From positions 25,683,142-25,747,141 of the forward strand of contig CM067349.1 in assembly GCA_034190875.2 (NCBI GenBank): a stretch of 64,000 nucleotides of DNA, given 5' to 3'. Source of the stretch: Urechis unicinctus. Its lineage: Eukaryota > Annelida > Polychaeta > Xenopneusta > Urechidae. Below, piece by piece: positions 19,635 through 56,077 of the stretch; the first letter of the stretch is position 1, and each line of letters opens with the position of its first letter. The notes beneath the pieces were generated by a model. It did not search any database. It saw nothing but the letters and a program-made list of their open reading frames with translations, and was not told the DNA's origin. Position numbers and translations under genes: made by a program.

Positions 19635-20385
19635 ATGGCGGTAATGTTGCAGGTGCTTATATAACATTACATGCTGTGACTGAAGTTAAGTGTGTTTATA
19701 TACCTGTCATATGTATCATTGACATAACAAGTGTTATTTCCGCTGCCTTCAGGTGCTGTGTGTCGTCAGTTTATGGACTTGCATCGAATCTCGGTCGTTA
19801 TCAGTTGATGTTACCAGATGTAACCCGAACACAGAGAAGAACAGATGTCATTGTGTTGATGAATGGTTCGATGTAGTGATTGAACGATGTATTCCGTGCC
19901 ACGTCGTGTGTCGATCAAGTGTTTATAATGAATGGTGCCGGAGTCAATGTCCAGGTAAATTACTGACTTTTAAGGAAAACAAATGAAAATACTTGATAAC
20001 TTAAGCATCGCCAGGAGCCATTGCAATGCTTTATCAGCTATCACGGGTTTCTGTTTCAGTCTTTGTCCGCTATATCCAATCAATACCAAAGACCTCAGCA
20101 ACAATGCCCACATCGACAGCTTCCGCATCGATAACGTTAGCAGCGCCGTTACAAACTGCAGTAGCGGCAGTAGAAGCACCAGGTCCCCAGAACGCGGCAC
20201 CCTCTATGCTGGCATCAGATGACGACATGGCGGTCCTGGCAGCGGTGAAGCAGATGACCTGGTTGCTGGGCATCACTGTCGTTCTCTGTATCGTCATAAT
20301 GATAACACTGAGTGTGGTTATGTGTCACTGTTATCGCAAGAGTGCCATGACAAATGGCTGTAAAACGAAGAGCGATTTCACATGA
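19635..20385 (+). CDS. Gene A: BCMA-like single-module TNF-receptor-type membrane protein
   Basis: Three exons: 19635-19652, 19753-19954, 20060-20385 (GT-AG; phase 0 then phase 1), giving 181 residues. Exon 1 encodes MAVMLQ and exon 2 continues a hydrophobic signal peptide to about residue 23. Eight cysteines follow (29, 38, 40, 52, 55, 59, 68, 72). The last six are spaced C-x11-C-x2-C-x3-C-x8-C-x3-C around EWFDVVIERCIPC. As I remember it, human BCMA has x12-x2-x3-x8-x3 and EYFDSLLHACIPC. Residues 75-140 form a Thr/Ala/Pro-rich stalk, 141-161 a membrane helix, and a 20-residue tail (CHCYRK...) follows with no evident TRAF or death motif. The predicted role is cell-surface binding of a TNF-family ligand. 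The residues before the first cysteine (SVDVTR) differ from all other copies. AATAAA lies at 20710. Confidence 0.72.
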
Positions 20386-20709
20386 ACACGCCTCAGAAAC
20401 AAGAATTGTCTGACTGGCAGACGTTAGATGTATGATGATACCGTAATGACAATCTTTCGTCTCCCGTATGCACTAACGTGCTATCTGTAAGGCGATTGGC
20501 CAGGTTATGTCGACTAAGAATGTGGGTTTACCTTAGTCTGCATGGCACTATGGGTTTTATCCTCGGCTTATAACCTGACTCACTTGTTGCAACGTCATGT
20601 TTATAACTGCATGTTCAACCTTCGTGTAGGCGGACAAATGTGGTGTATGAACTTGTTACATACGTCGCTGTGAAAGGAATACATGCAAATGGTTGTCAGC
20701 ATCTGTACG

Positions 20710-20715
20710 AATAAA
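20710..20715 (+). terminator. Poly(A) signal of gene A
   Basis: AATAAA about 325 bp after the stop, in the context GAATAAATTATTTTGCATG. The same context follows genes B (24660) and E (56247), and with one change gene D (44371). Confidence 0.65.
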
Positions 20716-20719
20716 TTAT

Positions 20720-23030
20720 TTTGCATGTTATAATTATTGTTTTTACATGAAAGAAAACTCACAGAGCACTCACGTAGAACACTACTTCCAGCACCGACTT
20801 TGTGGCCTCATTGAATGACGTCGACAAATCCTGACGGGATACGGTTTTACGTCAAGTGACATTGACACTCATATTGTCGTCTCCTGAATCCACATAATAT
20901 TGACTGCAGATGGACACCTTGACCATATTACATGGCTAAATCGATGTATTTTTCTTAGGTTCCCAAGTAATATCCAACCTCGACTCGTTATAGTTCCCAA
21001 ATGACAGGTCGTCCAGCATGGTATATTCCTAACCATAACTCAGATGAAGCTGAATGATTTATAGGCAACAAGGTTGTAGACATATCTTACCTACAGCACT
21101 GCGTTTCAAACCAGAGATAGAAACCACAGTTGAACATCGGACCAAGTTGTGAGTGGTGGTGGCGGGGTGGGGGGGGGGGGGGGGGGGGGGGGGGGGAACT
21201 GAACCTCAAAAACATTTTCCTCGTTATAACTTAGCAATCGCTAAAAGGTGCAGTGGTCAGCAATGTTTTATTTTAGTCCATTTCATGAAGTACAGCAGCC
21301 CCTCCTTCTGACCATCCTGGAACACACAATGTGCAAGTATTCTTGAGTTAAAGCTTAATGTTGGTTTGGTCACAGCAGTTGATAACAGCGGCGTCTATTG
21401 TACGCTTAAGTACATGTATCTATGACCTCTAGAATCGACTCAAGTAGGTCTCTAATGCTGCATTTAAATGTAATAACTCAGTGTTGCTTTGTGATTTTCA
21501 ACACGAACATTTAAGTTTTTTGTAGGTTTCGATATATGTATAGGCGTCAATGGTAACAGGTAAATAGCCAGCACAGTGATTTTGTCAAAATAAGTCGACA
21601 TGTTGAATTTCAGAAGCAGGATTTAAGTATTTGTGTATTGTCCAAAGTTCTCGCTTCAAACCCGGTCAATACTATACGACGTGATCAATTCCATCGACAC
21701 CCTCTACATCGCTGAACTCCTTTATAGCAGGATATCATTTATCAAGGGACGACGAGGCAGTCGGTATATTAGTGAAGCAGCCTTTCGAGTCGGTATATCT
21801 TAGTGAAGCGGTATTTTATGACACTTTATCGAAAATTAAGAATGACTGCTATGCGAGGTATATACTTAATACAAGTTGGATGTTTCGGAGAGTGGAGAAT
21901 TTCATCGGTCCGATGCTCACGTTGCTGAATGAGATTTCCGAAATTCAAGATATCAGAAATGACTTATATCATGTAGCGAGGTTATTGATATACCACAAGT
22001 GAATTAAGAGTAAATTATTGTGGTTTATATGGAGCTAGAGGTGACTGGTGAGGGTGTGGAGAGGGGAGAATCAGTGAACGATAAAGGTCACATGTGTATA
22101 TATAAACATGTCATTCTGTGACTTAAGAAAGGCGTGAAGCGTATAACTGTGATGCACAAGATGGCTTTTATATTGTCTACAGGTGCTCTACGCTGTTGGT
22201 TTACTGCTGTTAGTCACGTTCGTCTTACAAAACGCATTGAGCTAATTCAGGATAGTATAGATTATTCAAATTAGTTGCGTAATGGATTCCTCTAGAGGAT
22301 CTGTATAACATTGTAAGAATTGTACATTGTCCTATCCAACTTGACGATACAACCGCTCACTGAGTGTTTATCTCTGTTTAGTAATGACGCAGTGCAGAGT
22401 GTTGAGTGGCTAAGTTTTGTTCTATTCTTATACCTTTGCATACGACGGACTCCCTCGTTCACGATTTGTTAAAAGGGGACAAAAATAGCTACGTTGGGTA
22501 ACTACAATGTATTATCCTTACATGAAACACGCGTCATATCACGGGAGGCCAGGTTAGGAATACGTAGCATTGCCTTGTTAAGAAGAGTTGAATAATGACA
22601 GGCGCATATTGAAAGGTGATAAGGTTCAGTAACTGTTACATAAGTTGTCTCAAGTATCTAATACTACGAAAGCTACAACATACCGCAACGATGCTTCGTT
22701 AAAATGGGCGATGGGGGTGCTTTTCACAATGCCCGGGACTTGGACTGTCGATGGTTTAAACTAGATTTACTTCCTTAAACTCCCTTTTTTTTATTGGAAG
22801 TCTCGAGAAGTCGCATTGTATTTGTCAGAGATAAATCTTTTTTTGGCGTGATCGACAACGAACAAGGTGTTATTCATGGTCATGGTGGTCTTGATCACGA
22901 TACAAAACCTACGGGTGACCACTGTATGGTTTTAAATGCGGGACACATTTTAGATATACATCGCCACTTTAAAGCTATGTCAACTGTTCTTAACTAAAAT
23001 CTAACAAATTCTGCATATTAAGATAAACTG
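20720..23030. other. Spacer between genes A and B; poly-G tract and relic donor end
   Basis: No supported gene. An almost uninterrupted G run lies at about 21164-21196. At 21545-21559 the run GTCAATGGTAACAG followed by GTAAATA resembles the 3' end of the cysteine exon with its donor, as at 25600 and 57353. A 67-codon frame at 22794-22997 recurs at 42500 because the whole block is duplicated, which is not evidence for coding. Confidence 0.5.
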
Positions 23031-23149
23031 TTGAACAATCGATAATATAACATCGACAGTATCATGCAGATATTTATTCTGAGATTTGATCAAGCTTTAG
23101 CTGCGATCAACAACAACTGACTGTCGCGGCGTATTATCGCGATGGGTTG

Positions 23150-23320
23150 CACAATGCGATATCAAAGCTGTTTAAGATATCTAGTTCTGTTATAGCTTAT
23201 TATAACAATGTCACGTGGCTTTCATGATATCAGAAAAAGCCCTGATCTATGTTAGCTGGGACACATGTATTGACTTATTTTGTTACAATTCAAGATATCA
23301 TTATTATCTAAGATATCTTG
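23150..23320 (+). promoter_or_regulatory. Upstream region of gene B with five GATATC sites
   Basis: GATATC occurs at 23158, 23176, 23226, 23294 and 23312, all within 160 bp and about 120-280 bp before the start codon. The arrangement differs from that upstream of gene A, so the cluster is not explained only by recent duplication. The matching region of gene D is at about 42.86-43.02 kb. Confidence 0.4.
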
Positions 23321-23439
23321 TAGACCGATATGACTGTGTAACCCGATAGGGGATTACCATTCTTCTTTGTATCGTGAAGAACCTAATCTGTAGTCTGGGG
23401 ACTACTCGTGTACCGTGAAGAGATCCTTAGTTACAGAAG

Positions 23440-24233
23440 ATGACGACCCTGTTACAGGTGCTTGTCTAATATTATATGCTGTGACTGAAGTTGAATGTGG
23501 TTTATACACCTGTGATGGGTAACAGTGATATAACAAGTGTGATTTATGCTGCCTTCAGGTGCTGTGTGTCGTCAGTTTATGGACCTGTATCGCTTCCCGA
23601 TCGTTGTCAGCCGAAGATACCCAATGTAACCCGAACACAGAGAAGAACAGATGTCATTGTGTTGATGAATGGTTCGATGTAGTAATTGACAGATGTATTC
23701 CGTGCCACGTCGTGTGTCGATCAATTGTTTATGATGAATGGTGCCAGAGTCAATGCCCAGGTAAGTTGCTGACTCTTTAATGAAAAAAAGTGAAAATACT
23801 TGATATTTTAAGCGTCGTCAGGAACCATTGCAATATTATATCAACTGTTATTTTTTATGTTTCAGTCTTTGCAAGCTATATCCATTCGACACCAAAGGCC
23901 TCATCAACTACAACCACATCGACAGTCCCCACATCGATAACCATAGCAACGCCTATACAATCAGCAGATGCAGCAGCAGCAGCAAAAGCAGGTCTCCAGA
24001 ACGAGGCATCCTCTATGCTGGCATCAGATGATGTCGATACGGTCCTAGCAGCAGTGAATCTGCTGACGTGGTTGCTGGGCATCACTGCCGTCCTCTGTAT
24101 CGTCATACTGATAACACTGGGCGTGGTTATTGTGTCTGTTATGCGAGCGCGTCGCCGTGATCGTAAGAATGGCACGCCAAATGACCGTACAAAGAAGAAC
24201 AAAGATTCACATGAACACATGTCAGCAATATGA
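23440..24233 (+). CDS. Gene B: BCMA-like membrane protein, type 2 with long basic tail
   Basis: Exons 23440-23457, 23559-23760 and 23866-24233 give 195 residues. The signal peptide begins MTTLLQ across the exon 1/2 junction. The eight-cysteine module is intact, with WFDVVIDRCIPC in the BCMA-like centre. A Thr/Ser/Ala-rich stalk precedes a membrane helix at about 142-166, followed by a 29-residue, strongly basic tail starting RARRRDRK, a good stop-transfer signal. This is the longest tail in the family and probably the ancestral frame, since parts of it reappear out of frame in the other copies. No TRAF-binding or death-domain motif is visible. Poly(A) signal at 24660. It shares a block with gene A, duplicated as C+D. 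Confidence 0.75.
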
Positions 24234-24659
24234 ATTATCTGGTTGGCAGATGTAGGTTTTATGATAATACCGTAATGATATAATGAATGTTTGGCCCTAA
24301 ACTTCAGGCATAATACGACAATCACTAGTCTCTGGTATGTACGAACGAGCTATCTGTATAGCGACCGGTGATGTCGACTAAGAATGTGAGTTTACCTTCG
24401 GCACTGTCGGATTTTATCATCTCCACATCACCTGACTTATGAGTTAATTCTTGTTTCAACTTCATGTTTATAACTGCATTTGCTTATATTTTTTTACATT
24501 CTGTGGGTGATGGTGTATATATTATATGCTGTTGTAACATTTCCTGTGACCCGCCTACTTACTTACTTACTTACTGCATGCGGATAAATGTGATGTAAAT
24601 ACTTTGTGAATATGTCGGTGTGAAAGTATTATTTGCAAATGTTTGTCAGTATATTTATG

Positions 24660-24665
24660 AATAAA
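24660..24665 (+). terminator. Poly(A) signal of gene B
   Basis: AATAAA about 425 bp downstream of the stop, in the family context GAATAAATTATTTTGCATG. Confidence 0.65.
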
Positions 24666-24699
24666 TTATTTTGCATGTTATTAATATTGTGTTTACATA

Positions 24700-26640
24700 A
24701 AAGAAGATTCACAGAGATCGAACGTTAAACACTAAGTCCAGCTCCAACCAAGTGGACACATATAATGATGTTGACAAGTCTTTGAGAGCAACATTTTTAT
24801 GCCAACTGACATTGACACTCATTTTTTCTTCTCCTGTATCCACATATCATTGACTGCAGATGGATACCATGACCCAATATCAAGGCTAAATCGATTAAAC
24901 CATGACTTGTGTATTTATCTTATGTTCCCAAGTAATATCTAACCTGCACTCGTTATAGTTCCCACCTCTACATTACAGATTATCAAGCATGGCGTATTCC
25001 AGTACTCAAGATGAAGCCGAAGGGTTTATAGACACGATCTTAGCTACATAACTACATTTGATACCAGACACATAATCCCCAGTTGCATCCCAGAAAGTAC
25101 GATGAGCTGTGCCTGTAGAGCCACAATGACTTGGGCCACAGCAAACTCTGTGGTTCCATGATATCACATTGAACGTGCCCAATTGTGAGTGGTGGGGGCG
25201 GGGGATGTTAAGAGCTCCGCCCACAAGTACAAGGATAGGTTTATGTCACCCTCAAATGGAACCCCCAAAACATCACAACCTTCCTCGTCAATTACAATCG
25301 CCATAATTTAGCAATCGCTAAAAGGTGCAGTGGTCAGTAATGTTTTATTTGATCTATATCATCACTTCATGAATTACTGCATTCCCTCCCATCTATCATC
25401 CTGACACACAGGATGTACAAGTATTCGTGAGCTAGCATGATCACAGGTTGAAGGTTCGGTCATAGTTTTTCATAACAGCGGCGTTTATAGCAGTCATATA
25501 CTTAAGCACCTGTATCTATGAACTCTAGTATCCACTCAAGATATTGCATGTGAATATAATGCCTTCTTCTCTGTTATGTTGTATATGCATCAATGAACAG
25601 GTAAATAACCAGCCCACTGTTTTGGCAAAACAGGTTGAAGTGGTGAATTTCATAAGCAGGATACAAGTATTTATGTCGGCAGTCGGTATATTAGTGGAGC
25701 AGCCTATTTCTGCATCGCTATACTAATTACATTGTGTATGTTATACAATCAGCACAGTATATAGCATAGCAGCTATGTACAACGTTCAATATCGGAAAAC
25801 AGATTAAGCCATGAATGGAATCATGTTTGATAAGCGTTAATCACGTTCGCTGGCACCAACATATAATGATCACATTAAAGGTGTACTATGTACAATATAA
25901 TCGATGTTTTCGTCATTGTATAGTATTTGCAGTGATTCAGGGGTCTATTAGACAAATTGAACGTGAAGAGGGAAGAATAATGATTACAGTTGCCGTTATT
26001 TTCAGAACTGTCGAATAAAGTTTCACCAGTGATTTATCGGTCCTTGGTATGCGCACTCATGTCAAGGCATGGATCAAGAAGTCGCATGTAAATGAAAAGA
26101 CACATTGTACGACATTGTCGGATCTTCTATGACTTTCCATTTTTGGGTATAGCTTGCATGTAGCAATATGACTTACTTGATAAATGAGCTTTGCTGTTGC
26201 TAGGGGATGACCATGCTATCAACTGGTTAGTAGAGGGGTTTATTTTGGTTTTGTTTTATGTAAGGATCTTGTTGGCATATTAAGTTAAAGTCGAATCCGA
26301 CAATAGCCAACTAGATTCAAGGGTTAGTGATATGAATATCACCGTTACCGAAGAGGTGTTATGAGATATCTTAATGGGTTCATTATATCGGTATTATATA
26401 ATACAGAACATTAATTTCCCAAACTAACATTCTAACAAGTTATATGCATCACTACGTACAAGTCGGACTGTCCCGGAGAGCGGAGAATCATTCATCGGAC
26501 TGATAGAAGAGGTTCATTTAGCGGGAACATGCTGAATGAGATTTCCGACTGACTGACTGATCTCAGAATTGTTAACATTATCATTTACAATTCCTGACAT
26601 GATTAAGTGATTGAAGAGTTAATTGGGTTTAGTAGTATAG
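24700..26640. repeat. Downstream block of gene B, paralogous to 44.4-46.0 kb and to the 3.22-kb units
   Basis: No gene is supported. The block repeats at 44.4-46.0, 47.9-49.3 and 51.1-52.6 kb with high identity. At 25589-25600, CAATGAACAG followed by GTAAATAACC looks like a decayed cysteine-exon end plus donor. A 60-codon frame at 25544 recurs in each copy only because of the duplication. Confidence 0.6.
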
Positions 26641-26649
26641 TAAACGGCA

Positions 26650-30806: not shown

Positions 30807-33800
30807 CCGAGCCGTGTGAAACAAATGGATCCTACTGTCTGTTTCTGACGCTTAATAGATTCTTTTCGACAATTCAGCAATCCGCCCTCTATGACCGACT
30901 TTCGATTAGTATTTCGCGTTTAAGTCCGTCGCAGCCCAACGAGAGCAGAGTGCCTGTGGTTTATCCGATCAATCGTAAGCATATGCTGGGCAGTTACATT
31001 GACAACCATTTGCGATGTGTTATATGTTCAGTTTGTGTTATTTTATCCTGTACACTCTGTCCGTAATTCATCTATGTAATATATACGCGTAATATTAACA
31101 AACGTAACAGAAAAACCTACCTGAGGCGACATTGCACAAGTGAGGGAGGAAAACTGGATTTCCACTCGTACTGGCCAAAACGCGGCAATCCCCTCAGGCA
31201 AGTTGATCGAGTACGAAGCAGAAGGACGTGATCACGACATCGTGGGTTTATAGATATGCCCAGATAAACAACCGGAAACCCGAGCCTTGTTTAATTAAGT
31301 CATGCATGATAAACAACTTACAATGCACAATTGGATCACTGTAAACATTTGAGCAATTCATAAGAGGAATAGCGAACCCTTGGTCCCAATATCAGCCACG
31401 TGATCACTAAGACAATGTTCAGAATATGTTTCACGTTTTTCCCCAGCTAACATGCTATGGTGGCTGTTCATCAAATGCCATCATCAAAGTCAAGAAAATT
31501 ACATAACATCGCCGCTAAGCCTGGTAGTGTAGCTATCAGTGTAACAAACCAGCTGGTCAAGCATAGCATACAGCCTCGCTGACTTCTAAGAGTATTCGTC
31601 AAGATATAGACAAATCGCAAGACACACACAGCTTCTACCAGTGGAAATAGTGACTGTAGCACAAATAAGTGTTCATGTATTCAATTACAGAAGCAATATG
31701 AACACTGATTTTTCATATCAGTAACGTACAGCAATCCACGTCGCTTTACATTAAACGCATTAATGGACCTCAAAGTATGTGGGTCATAACTTGAATCAAT
31801 TTGTACTGCGCTTGTCAAAAATGTGAAAGGGGTAAAATAAATTAACTTGAGTTCCCGCTAACTTGAGTTCCTGCTCGTTTTAATCAATTCTGCAGCCGCG
31901 CAAAATTGATGATAATATGATCAATGCCGGCCCATACCACCCACCACATACATCTGTCCCATATACTTTTGGAGAATCACAACAATTTAGGAAAACACTA
32001 ACGTGAGCTCATTCAACTGTGCAAGTGTATCATTGATAGAGAAGAGCGAAGGCAACAATAGCGTCATGAAAAGGGACGTCTCTCTCTCGCGGTGAGATGA
32101 GCATGGACCGTTGTTAATTTCTGGCACGTCCCGTTGCTGTCGAATCATCATTTTTGCTTAATAGATTATCATGGCATATCTCAGAAAATCATTTTTATCC
32201 ATGCAATTTAAAACCGACTAATTCTTCCATTTGTAACCAGTTCTAGGTGTAACGTACTTAATAGATCATATTCTTTGATCTGAGCATACAGAGCTTTGTG
32301 ATATAATGCATACATATCCAGCTTCTTCCCTGCATCAAATCGACGATTACACAACAGAGCGTTCACCAGCAAGAGAGGCGTCACAGGTTGCACAGCAGCA
32401 GCAGCTGCTGCATCAGCTACGGCGGTGATGATGTATTGTAATCTCAACCAACCATATTGCAATCGACATGTGAAACATTTGTGGAATAATTGACGTGACA
32501 ATAAATCTGCGCGGGTTGAGAATCATTGTGCTAACTATCTGCTGGCTGCATTCCCATTCGTTATGACACATCTTTACGGCGAGAAGAGAAATCTACGTAG
32601 AACAACAATGACATCCGGGGCACCAACGCTCGGTTACCTAAAACACACCCCATACAGCCGCTCTCATTGCGCTCTCGTTGGACGAATGGGGGTTGCTTGG
32701 CATGACGTCATTGTGTCTCCAGTTACAGTAGGACAGCGCATCACAACCATTGTAAGATACCGGAGAAAACGACGCGAATGATATGCTTGTCGCTTTGCTG
32801 GCGACAAGGACAATCTACACTTGCTTAATTGATATCAATTTTTTTTTCTTTCTCCAGCCTAGGTTTTTCGGGCTTTTCTCTGGAACGGTTGGACATATCA
32901 ACATGAACTTTTTGGGAATGATAGATCAAGTTGGGACACAACACAACCGATCCAGTTTGACGCGCATGCACATTGTTGGAGGCTTATGGGATCGATATAT
33001 CGTCGATTTGTTCCCCCATTTTCTGTAACTATCTCCTCCATAACTACTGCAGTTACGGAAATATGAATTACATGGTTGTAACAAGCAATTATCGTAGCAT
33101 AGAATAACGCAAAAAAATACTTGTTTTCACTTTTTGTACTTTGTATAATGACATGTTTTTCAGGGTATCTATCACGATTTTTGCTCCAGCCTAAGTTTTT
33201 TGGGCTTTTCTCTGGAACGGTTGGACATATCAACATGAAATTTGGGGAATGATAGATCAAGTTAGGACACAACTACCGATACAGTTAGACTCGCATGCGC
33301 AGTGTTGGAGGCTTATGGGATCGATTTTTCGTTGATTTTCCCCCCATTTTCTGTAACTATCTCCTCCATAACTACTGCAGTTTCGAACATATGAATTACA
33401 TGGTTGTAGCAAGCAATTATCGTGGCATGGAATAGGGGGAAAAAATACTTGTTTTCACCTTTTGTACTTTGTATAATGACATGTATTTTAGAGTACCTAT
33501 CGCGATTTTTGCTACGAATTCTCTCCTCATTGATATCTCTGAAGCGGCTGTATTTACGCACATGACATTTCGTCAGTATTTAGAACTTAGCCTCGTGATA
33601 ATGATTGTAACAGTATTTTTAGCATTCACAGTGACAAAAAACAGTAAAAAGGACGATTAGTTTGAATGTTTTCTACTGCGGCAGCTTAGCGAGTAGGCTC
33701 TGCAGGCTTGTCTAAGTAGGCCAAACCTTACGTAATCGACTAGAGGCGATCATCCCTTTTCCCGCTTTGCATTACCAAACCTTACGTAATCGACCAGAGG

Positions 33801-34361: not shown

Positions 34362-34435
<74 letters not shown>

Positions 34436-34695
34436 TATAAATATATATATGTATATAAATATATATATATATATATATTTTTATATATATATGTGTATAT
34501 ATACATATACATATGTATATATATATATATATACATATTTATATGCATGAATATATATATGTATATATATGAACATATAAATATACATGTATATATACAT
34601 GCATATATATATAATATATGTATATATAACCAAACCCCTAAGTGTGTATTTATATGTGTGTGGTGCGTGTGTGTATGTGTTGTTATATACAAATA

Positions 34696-34763
<68 letters not shown>

Positions 34764-34990
34764 TCTATATATATATATAGAGATAAATATATATATATAT
34801 ATATATATATATTAGTATATAGATATATATAGATAGATATCTATATATATGTAAATATAGATATATATATATATATCTATCTCTCTATATATATATCTAT
34901 ATATATCTATATATATCTCTCTCTATATCTCTCTCTCTCTCTCTATCTCTATCTATCTATCTATATATATATATATATATTTTGTGTGTA
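34362..34990. repeat. Long (TA)n-rich microsatellite with internal duplication
   Basis: Two long TA runs (34362-34432 and 34697-34760), each preceded by a similar GTGTGTATTTATATGTG...GTTATATAC segment, indicate a tandem duplication of about 360 bp. The right part grades into CT/AT-rich variants up to 34990. Tyr/Ile-rich open frames here are artefacts. Confidence 0.9.
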
Positions 34991-35005
34991 ATATTGTTGA
35001 TACCG

Positions 35006-36568: not shown

Positions 36569-37251
36569 TTCACAGACACTCATTCAACAATCACAGGTGA
36601 AATCGATCATTCATCAATAACTGATGATATATACTCTATTCTAATCGCACCTCATATCGACCCAACATCGATAAATCTGATATCAACCTTTCTCGATCAC
36701 AGTTGATATCAATCACACGTGACATATGTTAAGAGACACAATGTTGTCTGTGAGTTCGTCAATTTTAACGAGAACCGACTTGCAGGCATCCCTCAATGAA
36801 TCAGGCTATGCATCGTCGCGCTCGAGATATCCGCCCGGGCGACAGGTACATCATCATGGGCCACGCAATAAGTCTTCCTACATTCCTTCAACAGAATTAA
36901 AAATATATTTCAACCGGTTCCCAATTGTAAGGCTGCGCTGTAGAAATGTGGCCGCGATGCAGTATCATATGATAAGCTTTATAGATACGGTCTTTTGCCC
37001 CCTAAACATGCGCTCGGCTGCTGCCAATGTCAGTTTTGTAATGGACCTATCCTAGCCACTTAACGGAACCATAGCCCCTGCTACTTGGAAACCTTACACT
37101 TAGATCCGAATGCATTTGCCCTGATTTAGGCTGATGTACTGTTACAGCCGGTAGGCTGCTACAACCAGTCATAGCTTAGTCTTCAAAGTCTCATTTTTAG
37201 GAATAGAAGCATGCTCGTGATGACAATGCATCCTTTGCGACAGGGCCGTCG

Positions 37252-37520
37252 TCAATAAAGAGCTAAATGTTAGGTCGTTGTCAGCAAGGGGCTGAATGTT
37301 AGGTTGTCTTCAGCAAAGAGATGAATGTTAGGTCGTTGTCAACAAGGAGGTGAATGTTAGGTTGTCGTCAGCAAGGAGATGAATTTTAGGTCGTTGTCAA
37401 CAAGGAGCTGAATGTTAGGTCGTCGTCGGCAAGGAGCTGAATGTTAGGTCGTCGTCAGCAAGGAGCTGAATGTTAGGTCGTCGTCAACGAGGACCTGAAT
37501 GTTAGGTCGTCGTCAGCAAA
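37252..37520. repeat. 29-bp minisatellite, about nine units
   Basis: CAAGGAGCTGAATGTTAGGT plus CGTCGTCAG recurs at 29-bp steps. The paralogous site (14488-14550) has only about two units, so the array grew in this copy. Units are contiguous with no spacers, so it is not CRISPR-like. Confidence 0.88.
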
Positions 37521-37999
37521 GAGAAGTCTATGAGGTCGTATATATGTGTCGATATATTTGAAGCTGTGAACACATGACTCTTGGTATTAGGTAATAAAAA
37601 ATCCTGCGTCTTGATTGTGATTGCGCTTTCAATGTTTGTATATATTGTTTTGCATGAGATTGTTCCTGTTTCGCATTTGATAGCAGCTTGTTTATTCGTG
37701 GCGAAATTACAGTTATATCACGATAGAGCACAAACCCTGGTTGTTCTGGAAGCTTATGATAAAGCTGCTTGTTTTACAATTAGCTTTATCAGCGTATCTC
37801 CTGCGATAGATGACGTTTAATGAGGATGGTATAATCGCTCAATGCCCTCATGGGTGAAATCTAATGTTATTCACAGAATCATCATCAGATGTTGATTGAC
37901 TTTTTGATTGAATTTTGGACTGTGTGCATTTACTACTTTGGACTCTTTGCTGTATTAATGTGTTTTCAATGAACATATGAGTATCGGTATATCTGATGC

Positions 38000-40036: not shown

Positions 40037-40808
40037 ATGATGACAGTGTTGCAGGTGGTTATATAACATGACATGCTGTGATTAAAGTTAAGTGTGTTTA
40101 TATACCTGTAATATGTATCATTGATATAACAAGTGTGATTTATGCTGCCTTCAGGTGCTGTGTGTCGTCAGTTTATGGACCTGTATCGATTCTCGGTCGT
40201 TATCAGCCGAAGATACCCAGTGTAACCCGAACACAGAGAAGAACAGATGTGATTGTGTTCATGAATGGTTCGATGTAGTGATTGAACGATGTATTCCGTG
40301 CCACGTCGTGTGTCGATCAAGTGTTTATAATGAATGGTGCCAGAGTCAATGCCCAGGTAAATTACTGACTTTTAAGGAAAACAAATGAAAATACTTGATA
40401 ACTTAAGCATCGCCAGGAGCCATTGCAATGCTTTATCAGCTATCACGGGTTTCTGTTTCAGTCTTTGTCCGCTATATCCAATCAATACCAAAGACCTCAG
40501 CAACAATGCCCACATCGACAGCTTCCGCATCGATAACGTTAGCAGCGCCGTTACAAACTGCAGTAGCGGCAGTAGAAGCACCAGGTCCCCAGAACGCGGC
40601 ACACTCTATGCTGGCATCAGATGACGACATGGCGGTCCTGGCAGCGGTGAAGCAGATGACCTGGTTGCTGGGCATCACTGTCGTTCTCTGTATCGTCATA
40701 ATGATAACACTGGGTGTGGTTATGTGTCACTGTTATCGCAAGAGTGCCATGACAAATGGCTGTAAAACGATTTCACATGAACACGCCTCAGAAACAAGAA
40801 TTGTCTGA
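40037..40808 (+). CDS. Gene C: BCMA-like membrane protein, type 1, mosaic copy
   Basis: Exons 40037-40054, 40155-40356 and 40462-40808 give 188 residues. The start is MMTVLQ, and exon 2 continues the signal peptide. The cysteine module reads CDCVHEWFDVVIERCIPC in its centre and keeps all eight cysteines. Intron 2 is identical to that of gene A and exon 3 differs at only two bases plus a 7-bp deletion, while exon 2 differs from A at about 15 of 202 bases. The deletion moves the tail into a frame giving ISHEHASETRIV, which resembles the end of gene B's tail (DSHEHMSAI). The family poly(A) region after the stop is missing, because about 760 bp present after gene A is deleted. Another downstream signal must therefore be used. 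Confidence 0.7.
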
Positions 40809-43130: not shown

Positions 43131-43145
43131 CCTTAGTTACAGAAG

Positions 43146-43832
43146 ATGACGACCCTGTTACAGGTGCTTGTCTAATATTACATGCTGTGACTGAAGTTGA
43201 ATGTGGTTTATACACCTGTGATGGGTAACAGTGATATAACAAGTGTGATTTATGCTGCCTTCAGGTGCTGTGTGTCGTCAGTTTATGGACCTGTATCGCT
43301 TCCCGATCGTTGTCAGCCGAAGATACCCAATGTAACCCGAACACAGAGAAGAACAGATGTCATTGTGTTGATGAATGGTTCGATGTAGTAATTGAAAGAT
43401 GTATTCCGTGCCACGTCGCGTGTCGATCAAGTGTTTATGATGAATGGTGCCAGAGTCAATGCCCAGGTAAGTTGCTGACTCTTCAATGAAAACAAGTGAA
43501 AATACTTGATATTTTAAGCGTCGTCAGGAACCATTGCAATATTATATCAACTGTTATTTTTTATGTTTTCAGTCTTTGCAAGCTATATCCATTCGACACC
43601 AAAGGCCTCATCAACTACAACCACATCGACAGTCCCCACATCGATAACCATAGCAACGCCTATACAATCAGCAGATGCAGCAGCAGCAGCAAAAGCAGGT
43701 CTCCAGAACGAGGCATCCTCTATGCTGGCATCAGATGATGTCGATACGGTCCTAGCAGCAGTGAATCTGCTGACGTGGTTGGTGGGCATCACTGCCGTCC
43801 TCTGTATCGTCATACTGATACACTGGGCGTGA
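43146..43832 (+). CDS. Gene D: BCMA-like protein ending inside the membrane helix
   Basis: Exons 43146-43163, 43265-43466 and 43573-43832 give 159 residues. It is the copy of gene B: MTTLLQ start, intact eight-cysteine module (HVAC instead of HVVC) and the same stalk. Relative to B, one A is missing in the ATAACACTG/ATACACTG stretch, so the protein ends ...CIVILIHWA at the end of the hydrophobic segment and loses the basic RARRR tail. The remaining C-terminal hydrophobic run of about 18 residues could still anchor the protein, could act like a GPI-addition signal, or could let it be secreted. All three are conjecture. It may also be a gene on its way to decay. Poly(A) signal at 44371. Confidence 0.55.
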
Positions 43833-44376: not shown

Positions 44377-46697
44377 TCATTTTGCATGTTATTAATATTG
44401 TGTTTACATAAAAGAAGATTCACAGAGATCGAACGTTAAAGTCCAGCTCCAACCACGTGGACACATATAATGATGTTGACAAGTCTTTGAGGGCAACATT
44501 TTTATGCCAACTGACATTGACACTCATTTTTTCTTCTCCTGTATCCACATATCATTGACTGCAGATGGATACCATGGCCCAATATCAAGGCTAAATCATT
44601 TTAAACCATGACTTGTGTATTTATTTATGTTCAAGTAATATCTAACCTGCACTCGTCATATCCCAAAAATCGGAGTACGATGAGAAGCTGTTTATTAAGA
44701 GCCTACAAACTACTTTGGGCCACACACAAACTATGTGGTTCGATGATATCACAATGATTGAACCTTGGGCCCCGTTGTGTGAGTGGTGGGGGCGGGGGAT
44801 GTTGAGAGCTCCACCTACAGGTACAAGGATAGGTTAATGTCACCCTCAAATGGAATCTCAAAAACATCACAACAATCGCCATAATTTAGCAATCGCTGAA
44901 AGGGCAGTGGTCAGTAATGTTTTATTTGATCTATAGCATCACTTAATGAATTACAGCATTCCCTCCCATCTATCATTCCGACACACACGATGTACAAGTA
45001 TTCGTGAGCTAGCATGATCACAGGTTGAAGGTTCGGTCATAGTTTTTCATAACAGCGGCGTTTATAGCAGTCATATACTTAAGCACATGTATCTATGAAC
45101 TCTAGTATCCACTCAAGATATTGCATGTGAATATAATGCCTCCTTCTCTGTTATGTTGTATATACATCAATGAACAGGTAAATAACCAGCCCACTGTTTT
45201 GGCAAAACAGGTTGACGTGGTGAATTTCATAAGAAGGATACAAGTATTTATGTCGGCAGTCGGTATATTAGTGGAGCAGCCTATTTCTGCATCGCTATAC
45301 TAATTACATTGTGTATGTTATACAATCAGCACAGTATATAGCATAGCAGCTATGCACAACGTTCAATATCGGAAAACAGATAAAGCCATGAATGGAAATC
45401 ATGTTTGATAAGCGTTAATCACGTTCGCTGGCACCAACATATAATGATCACATTAAAGGTGTACTATGTACCATAGATATCGATGTTTTCGACATTGTAT
45501 AGTATTTGCAAAGTATTTGCCGTGATTCAGGGGTCTATTAGACAAATTGAACGTGAAGAGGGAAGAATAATGATTACAGTTGCCGTTATTTTCAGAACTG
45601 TCGAATAAAGTTTCACCAGTGATTTATCGATCCTTGGTATGCGCACTCCATGTCAAGGCATGGATCAAGAAGTCGTATGTAAATGAAAAGACACATTGTA
45701 CGCCATTGTCGGATCTTCTATGACTTTCCATTTTTGGTATAGCTTGTATGTAGCAATATGACTTACTTCATAAATGAGCTTTGCTGTTGCTAGGGGATGA
45801 CCATGCTATCTACTGGTTAGTAGAGGGGTTTATTTTGGTTTTGTTTTATGTCAGGATCTTGTTGGCATATTAAGTTAAAGTCGAATCCGACAATAGCCAA
45901 CTAGATTCAAGGGTTAGTGATATGAATATCACCGTTACTGAAGAGGTCTAATGAGATATCTTAATGGGTTCATTATATCGGTATTATATGACACAGCACG
46001 TTCATTTCCCAAATTAAAGAATGATATAAGTTGTAGTGAGAATGATATATCAGACTGACCCCGAGAGAGGAGAATCATTCATCGGTTTGACATTCGGACA
46101 GAAGTATGCAAACTCATTTAGTAAACATTCGTCATCCTTAACGCAGTTTTGATGAGTAGTTGTAACGACCAAACTTCACAGCAGGGCTAGTTGCAAATAC
46201 GAATAACAGCATTGAACTCAGTGACCCCAGAAACTCAAGGTAACATTGGTGTGATATGGTATGATAATAGTGATTGGATGATGCGAGATATCTGTTATCT
46301 AACATTGCATATAACGAAGAGGGTTTTTGTTTCTCCGGTCAAGCGATTGAATTATGAGTTTTAAAGTGATGTAAGAAGGTTCAATCATATACGTAATTGG
46401 AAAATCTCTCACCAGCTATACACTTCTGTATGTTCCAGGGATTGTCACATTTTCCATATAAATGGTGCCAAGTATACTGGACAATGCATACCTCTATGCA
46501 GTAATATTTTGTGATGACACTGTGTATAACAAATCAATAATATATTTTCAGGTTGAATCATGATAAATTATCATTAAAACCATCCTAATCGTTAGCACGC
46601 TGCCTATTCTACCATGCCACACTAGAGAGGCATCAGACATTTACAGTGAGCTCTCAGATAGTATCTATTCCAATAACAACATTACGCCTCATCACAG

Positions 46698-46893
46698 TTT
46701 GTGGTGGTCGCTGTCGACTTGTTGGTGTATGCCTCTACACAGCCGACATTCGATGCACAATGTAACCCGTATATGGAGAAGAATGTCTGTCTGTATGGAG
46801 ATGAATTGAACGATTGAGTGAATGAATGATATCAACATTGCGTCGTGCCTCAGATAAGCGTGAACGACGATTGGAGCAAAGATCAACGTCCAG
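46698..46893 (+). pseudogene. Relic cysteine-module exon in unit 1
   Basis: Acceptor-like ATCACAG, then a sequence aligning with exon 2 of the intact genes: CAATGTAACCCG and GGAGAAGAATG correspond to the codons of CNP and EKN, and the exon ends CGTCCAG|GTAAATA. Most later cysteines and the frame are lost. Confidence 0.72.
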
Positions 46894-49800
46894 GTAAATA
46901 TCGAGCGCGGTGGTTTTGGCAAAACAGGTGAACATGATGAATTTCAGAAGCACGATGTAAGTATTTATTTGATGATATAATAGCTTATTGTCTAAATGTT
47001 TCCGATTGAAACCAGGTCAACACTATACAGCGTGACCAATGACATCCACTCGATCTACATCACAGGACTCTTTTGGATTTGTAGCAGAACGTCATCATCT
47101 AAGGATGACGAGGCAGTCCGTGTGGTCGGGCAGTAGCTGACGTTGCTACTGGGGTTTTCCCTGTACCGCTGTACTCGTCATGCTACCTACATAATCAAAA
47201 TATCGGAAGACAAATACAGTCATGAATGGAATTATGTTTAATAGGCTTTTGTCACGTTATCTGGCAGCAGGACGTTATGATGATAGCGTACTGTGTCAAT
47301 TAATATTAATGTATTTGTCATTGTACGGTATTTGCAAAATATTTACAAAAACGCTTAATCTGTATTAACCATTTTAGAGGAACGGACACACAGTATACCA
47401 TAGTCTGATGGTACATAAATGTACACTTTCTTGGCAGCTGTGCTTAACGATACGACTTGGGGATGAACATTGTGGCTGTTGGTCTCATTATCTACAAGTT
47501 ATGAAAGGGCTTTATTCTGTGTTGAGTGGGTTGGGTGTTGTAAAGAGAGGATTGGTCGGTTGACTATATGCGGCTGATTGGTGACAATGTGAAATGACGA
47601 AAGTTTGATATATGCTGTATGTTTATTGCATGTATATGTTGTGTTACTAGTGTGGATTAATGCTTTATAAACTGCCATATTAAGTGCAATATATTTCGAT
47701 GATATTGTACACAGACGTTAGTGCATATACTGAATCTGACATTGTTTCACAACTGCTTAAGATATATTGCGCAGTTTCAATAGAACGATGGTTCAGTATC
47801 ATTGCCAGGACTCAAGATGAAGCCGAAGGGTTTATATACATGATCTTAGCTACATAACTACATTTTAAACCAGATACATATTCCACAGCTGCATCCCAAA
47901 AATCGGAGTACCGATGAGCTGTGCCTTAAGAGCCACAATGACTTGGGCCACAACAAACTATGTGGTTCGATGATATCACATTGAACCTTGGGCCCCGTTG
48001 TGAGTGGTGGGGGCGGGGGATGTTGAGAGCTCCACCTACAGGTACAAGGATGGGTTAATGTCACCATCAAATGGAATCTCAAAAACATCACAACAATCGC
48101 CATAATTTAGCAATCGCTGAAAGGTGCAGTGGTCAGTAATGTTTTATTTGATCTATAGCATCACTTAATGAATTACAGCATTCCCTCCCATCTATCATTC
48201 CGACACACACGATGTACAAGTATTCGTGAGCTAGCATGATCACAGGTTGAAGGTTCGGTCATAGTTTTTCATAACAGCGGCGTTTATAGCAGTCATATAC
48301 TTAAGCACATGTATCTATGAACTCTAGTATCCACTCAAGATATTGCATGTGAATATAATGCCTCCTTCTCTGTTATGTTGTATATACATCAATGAACAGG
48401 TAAATAACCAGCCCACTGTTTTGGCAAAACAGGTTGACGTGGTGAATTTCATAAGAAGGATACAAGTATTTATGTCGGCAGTCGGTATATTAGTGGAGCA
48501 GCCTATTTCTGCATCGCTATACTAATTACATTGTGTATGTTATACAATCAGCACAGTATATAGCATAGCAGCTATGCACAACGTTCAATATCGGAAAACA
48601 GATAAAGCCATGAATGGAAATCATGTTTGATAAGCGTTAATCACGTTCGCTGGCACCAACATATAATGATCACATTAAAGGTGTACTATGTACCATAGAT
48701 ATCGATGTTTTCGACATTGTATAGTATTTGCAAAGTATTTGCAGTGATTCAGGGGTCTATTAGACAAATTGAACGTGAAGAGGGAAGAATAATGATTACA
48801 GTTGCCGTTATTTTCAGAACTGTCGAATAAAGTTTCACCAGTGATTTATCGATCCTTGGTATGCGCACTCATGTCAAGGCATGGATCAAGAAGTCGTATG
48901 TAAATGAAAAGACACATTGTACGCCATTGTCGGATCTTCTATGACTTTCCATTTTTGGTATAGCTTGTATGTAGCAATATGACTTACTTCATAAATGAGC
49001 TTTGCTGTTGCTAGGGGATGACCATGCTATCTACTGGTTAGTAGAGGGGTTTATTTTGGTTTTGTTTTATGTCAGGATCTTGTTGGCATATTAAGTTAAA
49101 GTCGAATCCGACAATAGCCAACTAGATTCAAGGGTTAGTGATATGAATATCACCGTTACTGAAGAGGTCTAATGAGATATCTTAATGGGTTCATTATATC
49201 GGTATTATATGACACAGCACGTTCATTTCCCAAATTAAAGAATGATATAAGTTGTAGTGAGAATGATTTATCAGACTGACCCCGAGAGAGGAGAATCATT
49301 CATCGGTTTGACATTCGGACAGAAGTATGCAAACTCATTTAGTAAACATTCGTCATCCTTAACGCAGTTTTGATGAGTAGTTGTAACGAACAAACTTCAC
49401 AGCAGGGCTAGTTGCAAATACGAATAACAGCATTGAACTCAGTGACCCCAGAAACTCAAGGTAACATTGGTGTGATATGGTATGATAATAGTGATTGGAT
49501 GATGCGAGATATCTGTTATCTAACATTGCATATAACGAAGAGGGTTTTTTGTTTCTCCGGTCAAGCGATTGAATTATGAGTTTTAAAGTGATGTAAGAAG
49601 GTTCAATCATATACGTAATTGGAAAATCTCTCACCAGCTATACACTTCTGTATGTTCCAGGGATTGTCACATTTTCCATATAAATGGTGCCAAGTATACT
49701 GGACAATGCATACCTCTATGCAGTAATATTTTGTGATGACACTGTGTATAACAAATCAATAATATATTTTCAGGTTGAATCATGATAAATTATCATTAAA

Positions 49801-49919
49801 ACCATCCTAATCGTTAGCACGCTGCCTATTCTACCATGCCACACTAGAGAGGCATCAGACATTTACAGTGAGCTCTCAGATAGTATCTATTCCAATAACA
49901 ACATTACGCCTCATCACAG

Positions 49920-50115
49920 TTTGTGGTGGTCGCTGTCGACTTGTTGGTGTATGCCTCTACACAGCCGACATTCGATGCACAATGTAACCCGTATATGGAG
50001 AAGAATGTCTGTCTGTATGGAGATGAATTGAACGATTGAGTGAATGAATGATATCAACATTGCGTCGTGCCTCAGATAAGCGTGAACGACGATTGGAGCA
50101 AAGATCAACGTCCAG
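49920..50115 (+). pseudogene. Relic cysteine-module exon in unit 2
   Basis: Copy of the relic at 46698-46893, 3222 bp further on and identical as far as I compared. It was already decayed before the tandem duplication. Confidence 0.72.
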
Positions 50116-53100
50116 GTAAATATCGAGCGCGGTGGTTTTGGCAAAACAGGTGAACATGATGAATTTCAGAAGCACGATGTAAGTATTTATTTGATGATAT
50201 AATAGCTTATTGTCTAAATGTTTCCGATTGAAACCAGGTCAACACTATACAGCGTGACCAATGACATCCACTCGATCTACATCACAGGACTCTTTTGGAT
50301 TTGTAGCAGAACGTCATCATCTAAGGATGACGAGGCAGTCCGTGTGGTCGGGCAGTAGCTGACGTTGCTACTGGGGTTTTCCCTGTACCGCTGTACTCGT
50401 CATGCTACCTACATAATCAAAATATCGGAAGACAAATACAGTCATGAATGGAATTATGTTTAATAGGCTTTTGTCACGTTATCTGGCAGCAGGACGTTAT
50501 GATGATAGCGTACTGTGTCAATTAATATTAATGTATTTGTCATTGTACGGTATTTGCAAAATATTTACAAAAACGCTTAATCTGTATTAACCATTTTAGA
50601 GGAACGGACACACAGTATACCATAGTCTGATGGTACATAAATGTACACTTTCTTGGCAGCTGTGCTTAACGATACGACTTGGGGATGAACATTGTGGCTG
50701 TTGGTCTCATTATCTACAAGTTATGAAAGGGCTTTATTCTGTGTTGAGTGGGTTGGGTGTTGTAAAGAGAGGATTGGTCGGTTGACTATATGCGGCTGAT
50801 TGGTGACAATGTGAAATGACAAAAGTTTGATATATGCTGTATGTTTATTGCATGTATATGTTGTATTACTAGTGTGGATTAATGCTTTATAAACTGCCAT
50901 ATTAAGTGCAATATATTTCGATGATATTGTACAAAGACGTTAGTGCATATACTGAATCTGACATTGTTTCACAACTGCTTAAGATATATTGCGCAGTTTC
51001 AATAGAACGATGGTTCAGTATCATTGCCAGGACTCAAGATGAAGCCGAAGGGTTTATATACATGATCTTAGCTACATAACTACATTTTAAACCAGATACA
51101 TATTCCACAGCTGCATCCCAAAAATCGGAGTACGATGAGCTGTGCCTTAAGAGCCACAATGACTTGGGCCACAACAAACTATGTGGTTCGATGATATCAC
51201 ATTGAACCTTGGGCCCCGTTGTGAGTGGTGGGGGCGGGGGATGTTGAGAGCTCCACCTACAGGTACAAGGATGGGTTAATGTCACCCTCAAATGGAATCT
51301 CAAAAACATCACAACAATCGCCATAATTTAGCAATCGCTGAAAGGTGCAGTGGTCAGTAATGTTTTATTTGATCTATAGCATCACTTAATGAATTACAGC
51401 ATTCCCTCCCATCTATCATTCCGACACACACGATGTACAAGTATTCGTGAGCTAGCATGATCACAGGTTGAAGGTTCGGTCATAGTTTTTCATAACAGCG
51501 GCGTTTATAGCAGTCATATACTTAAGCACATGTATCTATGAACTCTAGTATCCACTCAAGATATTGCATGTGAATATAATGCCTCCTTCTCTGTTATGTT
51601 GTATATACATCAATGAACAGGTAAATAACCAGCCCACTGTTTTGGCAAAACAGGTTGACGTGGTGAATTTCATAAGAAGGATACAAGTATTTATGTCGGC
51701 AGTCGGTATATTAGTGGAGCAGCCTATTTCTGCATCGCTATACTAATTACATTGTGTATGTTATACAATCAGCACAGTATATAGCATAGCAGCTATGCAC
51801 AACGTTCAATATCGGAAAACAGATAAAGCCATGAATGGAAATCATGTTTGATAAGCGTTAATCACGTTCGCTGGCACCAACATATAATGATCACATTAAA
51901 GGTGTACTATGTACCATAGATATCGATGTTTTCGACATTGTATAGTATTTGCAAAGTATTTGCAGTGATTCAGGGGTCTATTAGACAAATTGAACGTGAA
52001 GAGGGAAGAATAATGATTACAGTTGCCGTTATTTTCAGAACTGTCGAATAAAGTTTCACCAGTGATTTATCGATCCTTGGTATGCGCACCCATGTCAAGG
52101 CATGGATCAAGAAGTCGTATGTAAATGAAAAGACACATTGTACGCCATTGTCGGATCTTCTATGACTTTCCATTTTTGGTATAGCTTGTATGTAGCAATA
52201 TGACTTACTTCATAAATGAGCTTTGCTGTTGCTAGGGGATGACCATGCTATCTACTGGTTAGTAGAGGGGTTTATTTTGGTTTTGTTTTATGTCAGGATC
52301 TTGTTGGCATATTAAGTTAAAGTCGAATCCGACAATAGCCAACTAGATTCAAGGGTTAGTGATATGAATATCACCGTTACTGAAGAGGTCTAATGAGATA
52401 TCTTAATGGGTTCATTATATCGGTATTATATGACACAGCACGTTCATTTCCCAAATTAAAGAATGATATAAGTTGTAGTGAGAATGATTATCAGACTGAC
52501 CCCGAGAGAGGAGAATCATTCATCGGTTTGACATTCGGACAGAAGTATGCAAACTCATTTAGTAAACATTCGTCATCCTTAACGCAGTTTTGATGAGTAG
52601 TTGTAACGACCAAACTTCACAGCAGGGCTAGTTGCAAATACAAATAACAGCATTGAACTCAGTGACCCCAGAAACTCAAGGTAACATTGGTGTGATATGG
52701 TATGATAATAGTGATTGGATGATGCGAGATATCTGTTATCTAACATTGCATATAACGAAGAGGGTTTTTGTTTCTCCGGTCAAGCGATTGAATTATGAGT
52801 TTTAAAGTGATGTAAGAAGGTTCAATCATATACGTAATTGGAAAATCTCTCACCAGCTATACACTTCTGTATGTTCCAGGGATTGTCACATTTTCCATAT
52901 AAATGGTGCCAAGTATACTGGACAATGCATACCTCTATGCAGTAATATTTTGTGATGACACTGTGTATAACAAATCAATAATATATTTTCAGGTTGAATC
53001 ATGATAAATTATCATTAAAACCATCCTAATCGTTAGCACGCTGCCTATTCTACCATGCCACACTAGAGAGGCATCAGACATTTACAGTGAGCTCTCAGAT

Positions 53101-53138
53101 AGTATCTATTCCAATAACAACATTACGCCTCATCACAG

Positions 53139-53334
53139 TTTGTGGTGGTCGCTGTCGACTTGTTGGTGTATGCCTCTACACAGCCGACATTCGATGCACA
53201 ATGTAACCCGTATATGGAGAAGAATGTCTGTCTGTATGGAGATGAATTGAACGATTGAGTGAATGAATGATATCAACATTGCGTCGTGCCTCAGATAAGC
53301 GTGAACGACGATTGGAGCAAAGATCAACGTCCAG
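53139..53334 (+). pseudogene. Relic cysteine-module exon in unit 3
   Basis: Third copy of the same relic. It lies about 2.3 kb upstream of the exon of gene E, in line with the spacing of the array. Confidence 0.72.
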
Positions 53335-54739
53335 GTAAATATCGAGCGCGGTGGTTTTGGCAAAACAGGTGAACATGATGAATTTCAGAAGCACGATGTA
53401 AGTATTTATTTGATGATATAATAGCTTATTGTCTAAATGTTTCCGATTGAAACCAGGTCAACACTATACAGCGTGACCAATGACATCCACTCGATCTACA
53501 TCACAGGACTCTTTTGGATTTGTAGCAGAACGTCATCATCTAAGGATGACGAGGCAGTCCGTGTGGTCGGGCAGTAGCTGACGTTGCTACTGGGGTTTTC
53601 CCTGTACCGCTGTACTCGTCATGCTACCTACATAATCAAAATATCGGAAGACAAATACAGTCATGAATGGAATTATGTTTAATAGGCTTTTGTCACGTTA
53701 TCTGGCAGCAGGACGTTATGATGATAGCGTACTGTGTCAATTAATATTAATGTATTTGTCATTGTACGGTATTTGCAAAATATTTACAAAAACACTTGTT
53801 TATTATTCACAATATCGAATGTGAAATATAGAGGAGGAAGTATTTGTGTTGCTGTCTTGCTGTTTTAAATATGACTTTCGGGGTGAATATTCACTTGTGT
53901 CGCTTCAGTCCTTAATGTGGAGACAACACCTTGATCAATGCAAATCTGTATTAACCATTTTAGAGGAACGGACACACAGTATACCATAGTCTGATGGTAC
54001 ATAAATGTACACTTTCTTGGCAGCTGTGCTTAACGATACGACTTGGGGATGAACATTGTGGCTGTTGGTCTCATTATCTACAAGTTATGAAAGGGCTTTA
54101 TTCTGTGTTGAGTGGGTTGGGTGTTGTAAAGAGAGGATTGGTCGGTTGACTATATGCGGCTGATTGGTGACAATGTGAAATGACAAAAGTTTGATATATG
54201 CTGTATGTTTATTGCATGTATATGTTGTGTTACTAGTGTGGATTAATGCTTTATAAACTGCCATATTAAGTGCAATATATTTCGATGATATTGTACACAG
54301 ACGTTAGTGCCTATACTGAATCTGACATTGTTTCACAACTGCTTAAGATATATTGCGCAGTTTCAATAGAACGATGGTTCAGTATCATTGCTTAGTGGGT
54401 GTTATTCAGGACTAATAAGAATTCGCGGACTGCATAGTCATGGTTTGTCGGGTGAAATGTGAAGAAATCGTAACATACAGGGAATGACATCATTCTGTAC
54501 GTCCTTTCAGATATAATGGGACGAATTGTGTAATTGGCTGTTTGTTTATCGATATTTCGTAATTGGTTGGCTCAACATAGTGTATCCTTTAGGTTATTTA
54601 TCTCAATTCACTAATATATTGCGCTTGCCCGGTCAACTCTGGTTTACCATGAAGGGAACCGATATTAATAAAGAATTAATATAGGCCTCTATCATTACAA
54701 TCCGTATTAGAGATAAACATAGCCAAACTGAAACTATAC

Positions 54740-55155
54740 GAACCATCTCGAACTAGAATAGGAAAATCCGGATAATTTAAATTAACCGTTCAATATTCAA
54801 CAATTCAACATAGAATGCTTCGTGCGTCATATTTCAAAAATGAATCTAATCGGGCTTAACTAACGAAAATCTATAACTCACAATCCCTTGCATCGCTGCG
54901 TTTTGGCACTTCACGATCTTTCCTGTTCTAGATATCTGAATTCAGTACCTTATCATACACTGAGTGCGTTAAGAGATATCTTGTTGGCTTTCAAGATATC
55001 ACATATGCGTATAGAAGTATAAGTGAGAGATTTACAATACATGGTAATCAGGCTATATTGGAGAAAGAATTGGCTTCAAAAGGACAGAAAAGCAGCCGTC
55101 TATTTTAGTGGGAATGCAGTAATAGAGACAACAATCTGACACACAAGATATCGCT
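54740..55155 (+). promoter_or_regulatory. Upstream region of gene E with GATATC cluster
   Basis: GATATC at 54931, 54975, 54995 and 55147. The region is homologous to those of A and C but clearly older in divergence and with different spacing, yet the number of sites is kept. Confidence 0.4.
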
Positions 55156-55304
55156 GTTCAACAATATATTTATTAAATTACTATGTAACGACATGCTTGT
55201 GTGATGGCTTAGTTCAGTATCACGCTTCATAGAGAATTTTAGTCAACGCAGAAGGCCCTGCAGAAATACATTTATATTGTGAAGGAATCTTTAACTTACA
55301 GAGG

Positions 55305-56077
55305 ATGAAGACAGTGTTGCAGGTGATTATGTAACATTACATGCTATAACTGAAGTTAAATATGCTTTATATACCTGTGATGGGTAATAGTAATATAACA
55401 AGTTGTATTTCTGCTGCCTACAGGTGCTGAGTGTCGTCAGTTTATGGACCTACATCGCTTCGCTGTCGCTATCAGCCGAAGATACCCGATGTAACCCGAA
55501 CACAGAGAAGAACAGATGTGATTGTGTTCATGAATGGTTCGATGTAGTGATTGAGCGATGTATTCCGTGCCACGTTGTGTGTCGATCAAGTGTTTATAAC
55601 GAATGGTGCAAGAGTCAATGCCCAGGTAAATTACTGACTTTTAAGGAAAACAAGAGAAAATACTTGATAACTTAAGCATCGCCAGGAGCCATTGCAATGT
55701 TTTATCAGCTATCACGGGCTTCTGTTTCAGTCTTTGTCAGCTATATCCAATCAATACCAAAGACCTCAACAACAATGCCCACATCGACAGCCTCCACAAC
55801 GATAACCTTAGTAGCGCCCATACAGACTGCAGTAGCAGCAGCAGAAGCACCAGGTCCCCAGAACGCGGCACCCTCTATGCTGGCATCAGATGACGACATG
55901 GCGGTCCTGGCAGCGGTTAAGCAGATGACCTGGTTGCTGGGCATCACTGTCGTTCTCTGTATCGTCATAATGATAACACTGGGTGTGGTTATGTGTCTGT
56001 TATGGTCCGCATCGCCGTTATCGCAAGAATGGCACACCAAAGAGCGAAGATTCATAGGAACAAACCTCTGTAAATGA
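55305..56077 (+). CDS. Gene E: BCMA-like membrane protein, type 1, diverged copy
   Basis: Exons 55305-55322, 55424-55625 and 55731-56077 give 188 residues. The start is MKTVLQ, and the signal peptide continues VLSVVSLWTYIASLSLS. All eight cysteines are present, with CDCVHEWFDVVIERCIPC as in gene C. The stalk is Thr/Ala/Pro-rich and the membrane helix spans about 141-165. The tail (SASPLSQEWHTKERRF...) is unlike all others because a one-base loss near the helix end shifts the frame relative to gene B. The poly(A) signal is at 56247, only 170 bp after the stop. The downstream flank matches that of A and C up to about 59.28 kb, where a type 2 gene would be expected but is missing. Confidence 0.7.

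Follow-up and report, generated by a model that had tools for sequence, protein, structure and literature searches.

Within a stretch of 64,000 nucleotides from the annelid Urechis unicinctus (C8:25683142-25747141, in a genome of 1.19 Gb), hereafter the window, five predicted tandem genes (copies A-E) encode small membrane proteins with one eight-cysteine module. We consider it likely that this cluster represents a branch of single-module TNF receptors specific to its lineage, similar to BCMA and Grindelwald and not orthologous to BCMA, in which the window copies are more likely to have a damping role. By its module and its predicted topology, the family to which they belong fits the single-cysteine-rich-domain (single-CRD) group of the TNF receptor superfamily, which includes BCMA, TACI, BAFFR, Fn14 and Grindelwald; receptors of this group are described as compact and as touching a trimeric ligand on a single one of its monomers (PMC6001812). 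The initial annotation of the window had proposed a cluster of BCMA-like candidate receptors or decoys. Its five genes, their coordinates and their cysteine pattern stand, whereas the broken frame of copy D, three relic modules and a sixth, more diverged copy beyond the window end had been missed; its interpretation is partly supported, a receptor or decoy role being plausible.

Kinship of the cysteine module

Sequence comparisons indicate that the module is homologous to those of BCMA, TACI, Fn14 and Grindelwald. Searched against all PDB sequences, copies A and C in their exact form each returned 11 distinct matches at E<=10, ten of them BCMA and one Grindelwald, with best E-values of 0.0024 (copy A) and 0.0032 (copy C) for BCMA and of 0.021 (copy A) and 1.3 (copy C) for Grindelwald; a consensus query did better than the exact copies (E 0.00064). 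BCMA-Tall_bind is the top Pfam family for all five window modules (E 0.00055-0.0034) and the only one for the whole protein of copy A. A profile built from 23 family modules recovered BCMA (6.4e-5), TACI (0.021), RNF13 (0.75, taken as chance) and Grindelwald (0.79), and L027, a member 38% identical to the first row of the alignment, matches BCMA in the PDB on its own (6.1e-4). When columns were shuffled with the cysteines held fixed, the real score was reached in 0/300 shuffles both for BCMA (24.5 bits vs a shuffle maximum of 17.8) and for Grindelwald (13.4 bits vs 11.5). Thus, the likeness to these receptors exceeds cysteine spacing, and the PDB and Pfam searches agree with this control in bearing out the BCMA-like module of the initial annotation. 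Neither the Pfam nor the PDB listings at E<=10 for modules of the window contain an EGF-like or other known cysteine-rich module. When the window modules and the 23 family modules were scanned, the Pfam families listed at E<=10 did not include TNFR_c6 (PF00020), the domain of other receptors present in the same genome; HMMER filters drop most matches above ~0.1. A search of a 5.8-billion protein set found no homolog at E<=10 (copy A) or E<=1 (eight-row alignment), which says little because animal proteins may be scarce in it.

The pattern C-x11-C-x2-C-x3-C-x8-C-x3-C, given in the initial annotation, marks the five copies and recurs at no further open site when the window is read in all six frames, and the match to BCMA is indeed gap-free from the hairpin on. 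Across the family, 20 of the 23 modules share with BCMA the spacing 2-3-8-3 from the fourth cysteine on. The loop before that cysteine has the length found in the window copies in 20/23 modules, with an Asp at the distance of BCMA Asp15 in 19 of these 20 and an Asn in one; in the remaining three the loop is one residue longer, and counting from the Trp places an Asp or a Glu there. An acidic residue therefore stands at or beside the Asp15 position in 22/23 modules. At the tip of the hairpin, Fn14, BCMA and TACI carry a motif of the Asp-x-Leu type that gives major ligand contacts and that is described as absent from Grindelwald (PMC8024323). The window copies have D-V-V at this place, as the initial annotation had it; beyond its view, four of the 23 modules (L024, L025, L027 and L028, two near-identical pairs) have D-S-L as in BCMA.

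Several results weigh against this assignment. All BCMA-Tall_bind scores obtained, for window modules and for those from outside the window (13.8-20.5 bits), lie under the curated cut-off of 27 bits, so that the Pfam comparison suggested in the initial annotation favors BCMA in rank and falls short in score, and the matched region spans 30-36 residues. Taken one by one, only 10 of the 23 modules match BCMA-Tall_bind, in a set whose rows 1-4 are window copies or their consensus; among eight modules from outside the window, three match it (the sixth copy, L024 and L027) and five match neither it nor TACI-CRD2. With whole proteins, six unrelated membrane or low-complexity families outscore BCMA-Tall_bind for copy B, and only one in eight family proteins matches it, others matching unrelated membrane families, one of them at 1.3e-5. 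Additionally, no TNF receptor was found in the PDB with L021, a member of a subgroup on C6. The low scores, the five unmatched modules and L021, together with two extra N-terminal cysteines, would suit an unrelated small disulphide-rich membrane family whose likeness to BCMA arose by convergence of cysteine spacing and of the E-W-Y-D hairpin. We regard such convergence as unlikely: shuffles that keep the cysteines never attain the real score, two divergent kinds of member match BCMA independently of each other, TACI-CRD2 matches 2/23 modules, the sixth copy at 0.0019 among them, and the relatives have a membrane helix and TRAF-like tails.

Within the single-CRD group, the family was compared with BCMA, Grindelwald and TACI. 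Like BCMA, its proteins have one small module in which the last six cysteines, after a first spacing of x11 here vs x12 in BCMA, follow x2-x3-x8-x3. BCMA is a type III protein (PMC6001812), whereas the start of the window proteins, judged by hydropathy, looks like a signal peptide; the family also adds two N-terminal cysteines and has many copies in one genome. Since the Pfam score stays under the cut-off and the window copies are without D-x-L, the module is not BCMA proper. Grindelwald, the second PDB match after BCMA, shares a module with eight cysteines, a single membrane helix and the core E-R-C-x-P-C-x-x-V-C; however, it starts C-x4-C-x6-C-x6-C and has one cysteine within the hairpin (X2 module), whereas in the present family the two extra cysteines both come before the hairpin, and because of this different placement the module is not Grindelwald proper either. 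TACI is matched by the family profile less strongly than BCMA, 30 profile positions aligning on 28 TACI residues. The first label given to the cluster, "TNFRSF17-type," is thus too narrow, given Grindelwald as the next match, the extra N-terminal cysteine pair and the signal-peptide-like start.

Topology, tails and fate of the window copies

All five copies lie on the + strand, each with a coding exon 1 of 18 bp, an exon 2 of 202 bp and an exon 3, joined at GT/AG ends in a closed frame: copy A at 19635..20385 (exons 19635-19652, 19753-19954 and 20060-20385; 181 aa), copy B at 23440..24233 (23440-23457, 23559-23760 and 23866-24233; 195 aa), copy C at 40037..40808 (40037-40054, 40155-40356 and 40462-40808; 188 aa), copy D at 43146..43832 (43146-43163, 43265-43466 and 43573-43832; 159 aa) and copy E at 55305..56077 (55305-55322, 55424-55625 and 55731-56077; 188 aa). 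Their products are ordered as a hydrophobic start, the module, a stalk that by eye is rich in Thr, Ala and Pro, and a hydrophobic helix, followed in four of the five by a tail. The start, judged by hydropathy, is signal-peptide-like, the helix spans 21 residues in 5/5 copies (Kyte-Doolittle mean 2.56-3.08), and a hydrophobic open frame follows the module in 16/18 relatives. On hydropathy, then, these would be single-pass membrane proteins with the module extracellular.

The second splice is supported by the family, since a scan of 20 relatives' loci, in 18 of which the module was located (the sixth copy included), found a GT at the same CP-G codon in 17/18, and since the intronless L036 reads through continuously (CP-VYAH), much like the spliced window product. 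The 18-bp exon 1, with its weak first donor (CAG|GTGCTT and similar), is the least certain part of the predicted gene model.

Helix and tail had been annotated for all five copies. The helix is indeed present in each, but copy D has a 1-base deletion within it, and three residues remain after the helix. Aligned over exon 3 with copy B, copies A and C lack 18 bp at the tail start and are in frame with B over most of the tail, and copy E has two 1-base gaps that put its tail in a different frame; the tail of copy B starts in the same frame as that of the sixth copy, and both are long. Tails are thus shortened, frame-shifted or nearly absent in four of the five window copies. The major TRAF2 motif has the consensus [PSAT]x[QE]E, which appears in relatives' tails as PIQE, PVQE, PAQE, PIEE, TQQE or AQQE. 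It occurs in 8/22 tails (shuffle mean 1.60, P 0.0002) and, after removal of near-duplicates, in 5/18 (shuffle mean 1.28, P 0.005), a result tempered by the shortness of TRAF motifs, by tail starts picked by eye and by a motif tested after the tails had been viewed; the count leaves out copy D with its three residues, L018 and L020, in which no tail was located, and L034/L035, which nearly duplicate L033. In the same [PSAT]x[QE]E scan, the tails of the sixth copy and of A, B, C and E are without a TRAF2-type motif.

These features suggest a mechanism in which the hairpin E-W-[FY]-D would dock on a trimeric TNF-family ligand as BCMA does. Members with PxQE, PxEE or TxQE tails would recruit TRAF adaptors, and the window copies would be ligand-binding proteins of the membrane that do not signal through TRAF, and so would more likely dampen the signal than pass it on. 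A damping role is favored because the module appears to be under purifying selection (see below), TRAF motifs are absent and four of five tails are altered. It is possible, at a clearly lower probability than the reading given at the outset, that the TNF receptor fold is right and the window copies nonetheless signal, through a tail route other than TRAF or by pairing with tailed members, and are not decoys. The long tails of copy B and the sixth copy and the largely shared frame of A, B and C would suit such signaling, and Drosophila Grindelwald is described as also having a Veli binding domain (PMC8024323); yet none of these tails, nor that of E, holds a TRAF2-type motif, D ends three residues past the helix and the tail of E is read in another frame than that of B.

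Selection on exon 2 bears on whether the copies function at all. The ratio of replacement to silent substitution rates (dN/dS) is 0.19-0.38 in nine of the ten pairs of window copies, and the window modules appear by this measure to be under purifying selection; the tenth pair, B-D, has 3 replacement changes and 0 silent ones. Among the five copies, 39 of 50 module columns are invariant, including all eight cysteines. Introns are 81-100% identical, and some copying or conversion must therefore be recent. Three relics of the exon-2 module, each on the + strand and each a member of a 3.2-kb repeat of three units, lie between copies D and E, at 46755..46892 (two stops, cysteines lost), 49977..50114 and 53196..53333 (both with stops and lost cysteines). 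With the frame-broken copy D, the altered tails, the pair without silent change and pieces of retroelements nearby, these relics could mark the cluster as a decaying tandem array without present function. The low dN/dS of the other nine pairs and the invariant columns argue against decay, which we judge improbable; still, the altered tails and the B-D pair may reflect decay or recent copying and not a decoy role. For the preferred reading, a constrained outside combined with an unstable inside would fit membrane-bound decoys, decaying genes being the alternative.

The retroelement pieces consist of a reverse transcriptase and integrase core at 1624-5637 (+) and an integrase zinc-binding domain at 16624-17217 (-). 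Other repeats of the window are a TA microsatellite (34362-34980), a 29-bp minisatellite (37247-37523), a 31-bp minisatellite (10305-10513) and a 328-bp unit in two copies (32852-33513).

Relatives and TNF ligands in the genome

At E<=10, a genome search with the module gave 34 matches. Thirty were retrieved, as 27 open modules and 3 relics, the latter all inside the window; the other four lie on C17 (two), C3 and C7. A search of the genome with abalone lysin gave no match. The 27 open modules, the weakest of which have E 0.05-0.13, are a lower bound. The family occupies C2, C4, C6, C8, C10, C13 and C17, and a search seeded with a member from C4 gave 23 matches, all but one at places already found. 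The module exon of the sixth copy begins ~240-260 bases beyond the window end. Two further clusters, C4:1.008-1.014 Mb and C17:37.243-37.249 Mb (L022-L028), contain the pairs L023/L026, L024/L025 and L027/L028, a pairing due to a recent cluster duplication or possibly to an assembly effect. In the C6 subgroup (L021 and L033-L035, 60.29-60.40 Mb), module and membrane helix share one open frame, and the cysteine spacing after the fourth cysteine is 2-2-4-4 in L021 and L033. Searches limited to open-access papers listed no description of the family.

TNF-domain matches over the Pfam cut-off (E<=0.01) number nine, all within one 0.66-Mb stretch of C11 (28.06-28.72 Mb, L037-L045), and several appear by eye to be type II membrane proteins. 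Four of these domains were aligned, and Pfam places all four in the TNF family; against the PDB they gave 15 weak matches mixed with unrelated proteins (lymphotoxin-alpha 0.0098, TRAIL 0.69). A BAFF-type ligand was considered and set aside: the C11 genes are TNF ligands and not recognizably BAFF, and because the PDB matches are so weak and mixed, BAFF kinship is not shown.

More tentatively, the docking hairpin of the BAFF/APRIL receptor type may be older than vertebrates and may have expanded in this lineage into a large receptor/decoy system missed by TNFR_c6-based annotation, with TRAF-coupled members on other chromosomes and tail-altered, membrane-bound tandem decoys in the window. Such a system would have evolved alongside the tandem TNF-ligand cluster. 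In the same genome, TNFR_c6 was found at no fewer than six places over the cut-off and at one below it (150/179 candidates scored). In the Aplysia immunome, 15 TNF receptors were counted via InterPro IPR001368 (PMC9334734). Set against the 27 open modules of the present family, the at least six TNFR_c6 places imply that TNFR_c6-based counts could omit much of the repertoire. Quistad and Traylor-Knowles (PMC4979521) name as open questions which ligands invertebrate TNF receptors bind and what the receptors lacking death domains do. The family supplies definite receptor candidates for matching with TNF ligands, and a possible bridge from the fly Grindelwald to vertebrate BCMA and TACI, with a decoy hypothesis that is testable.

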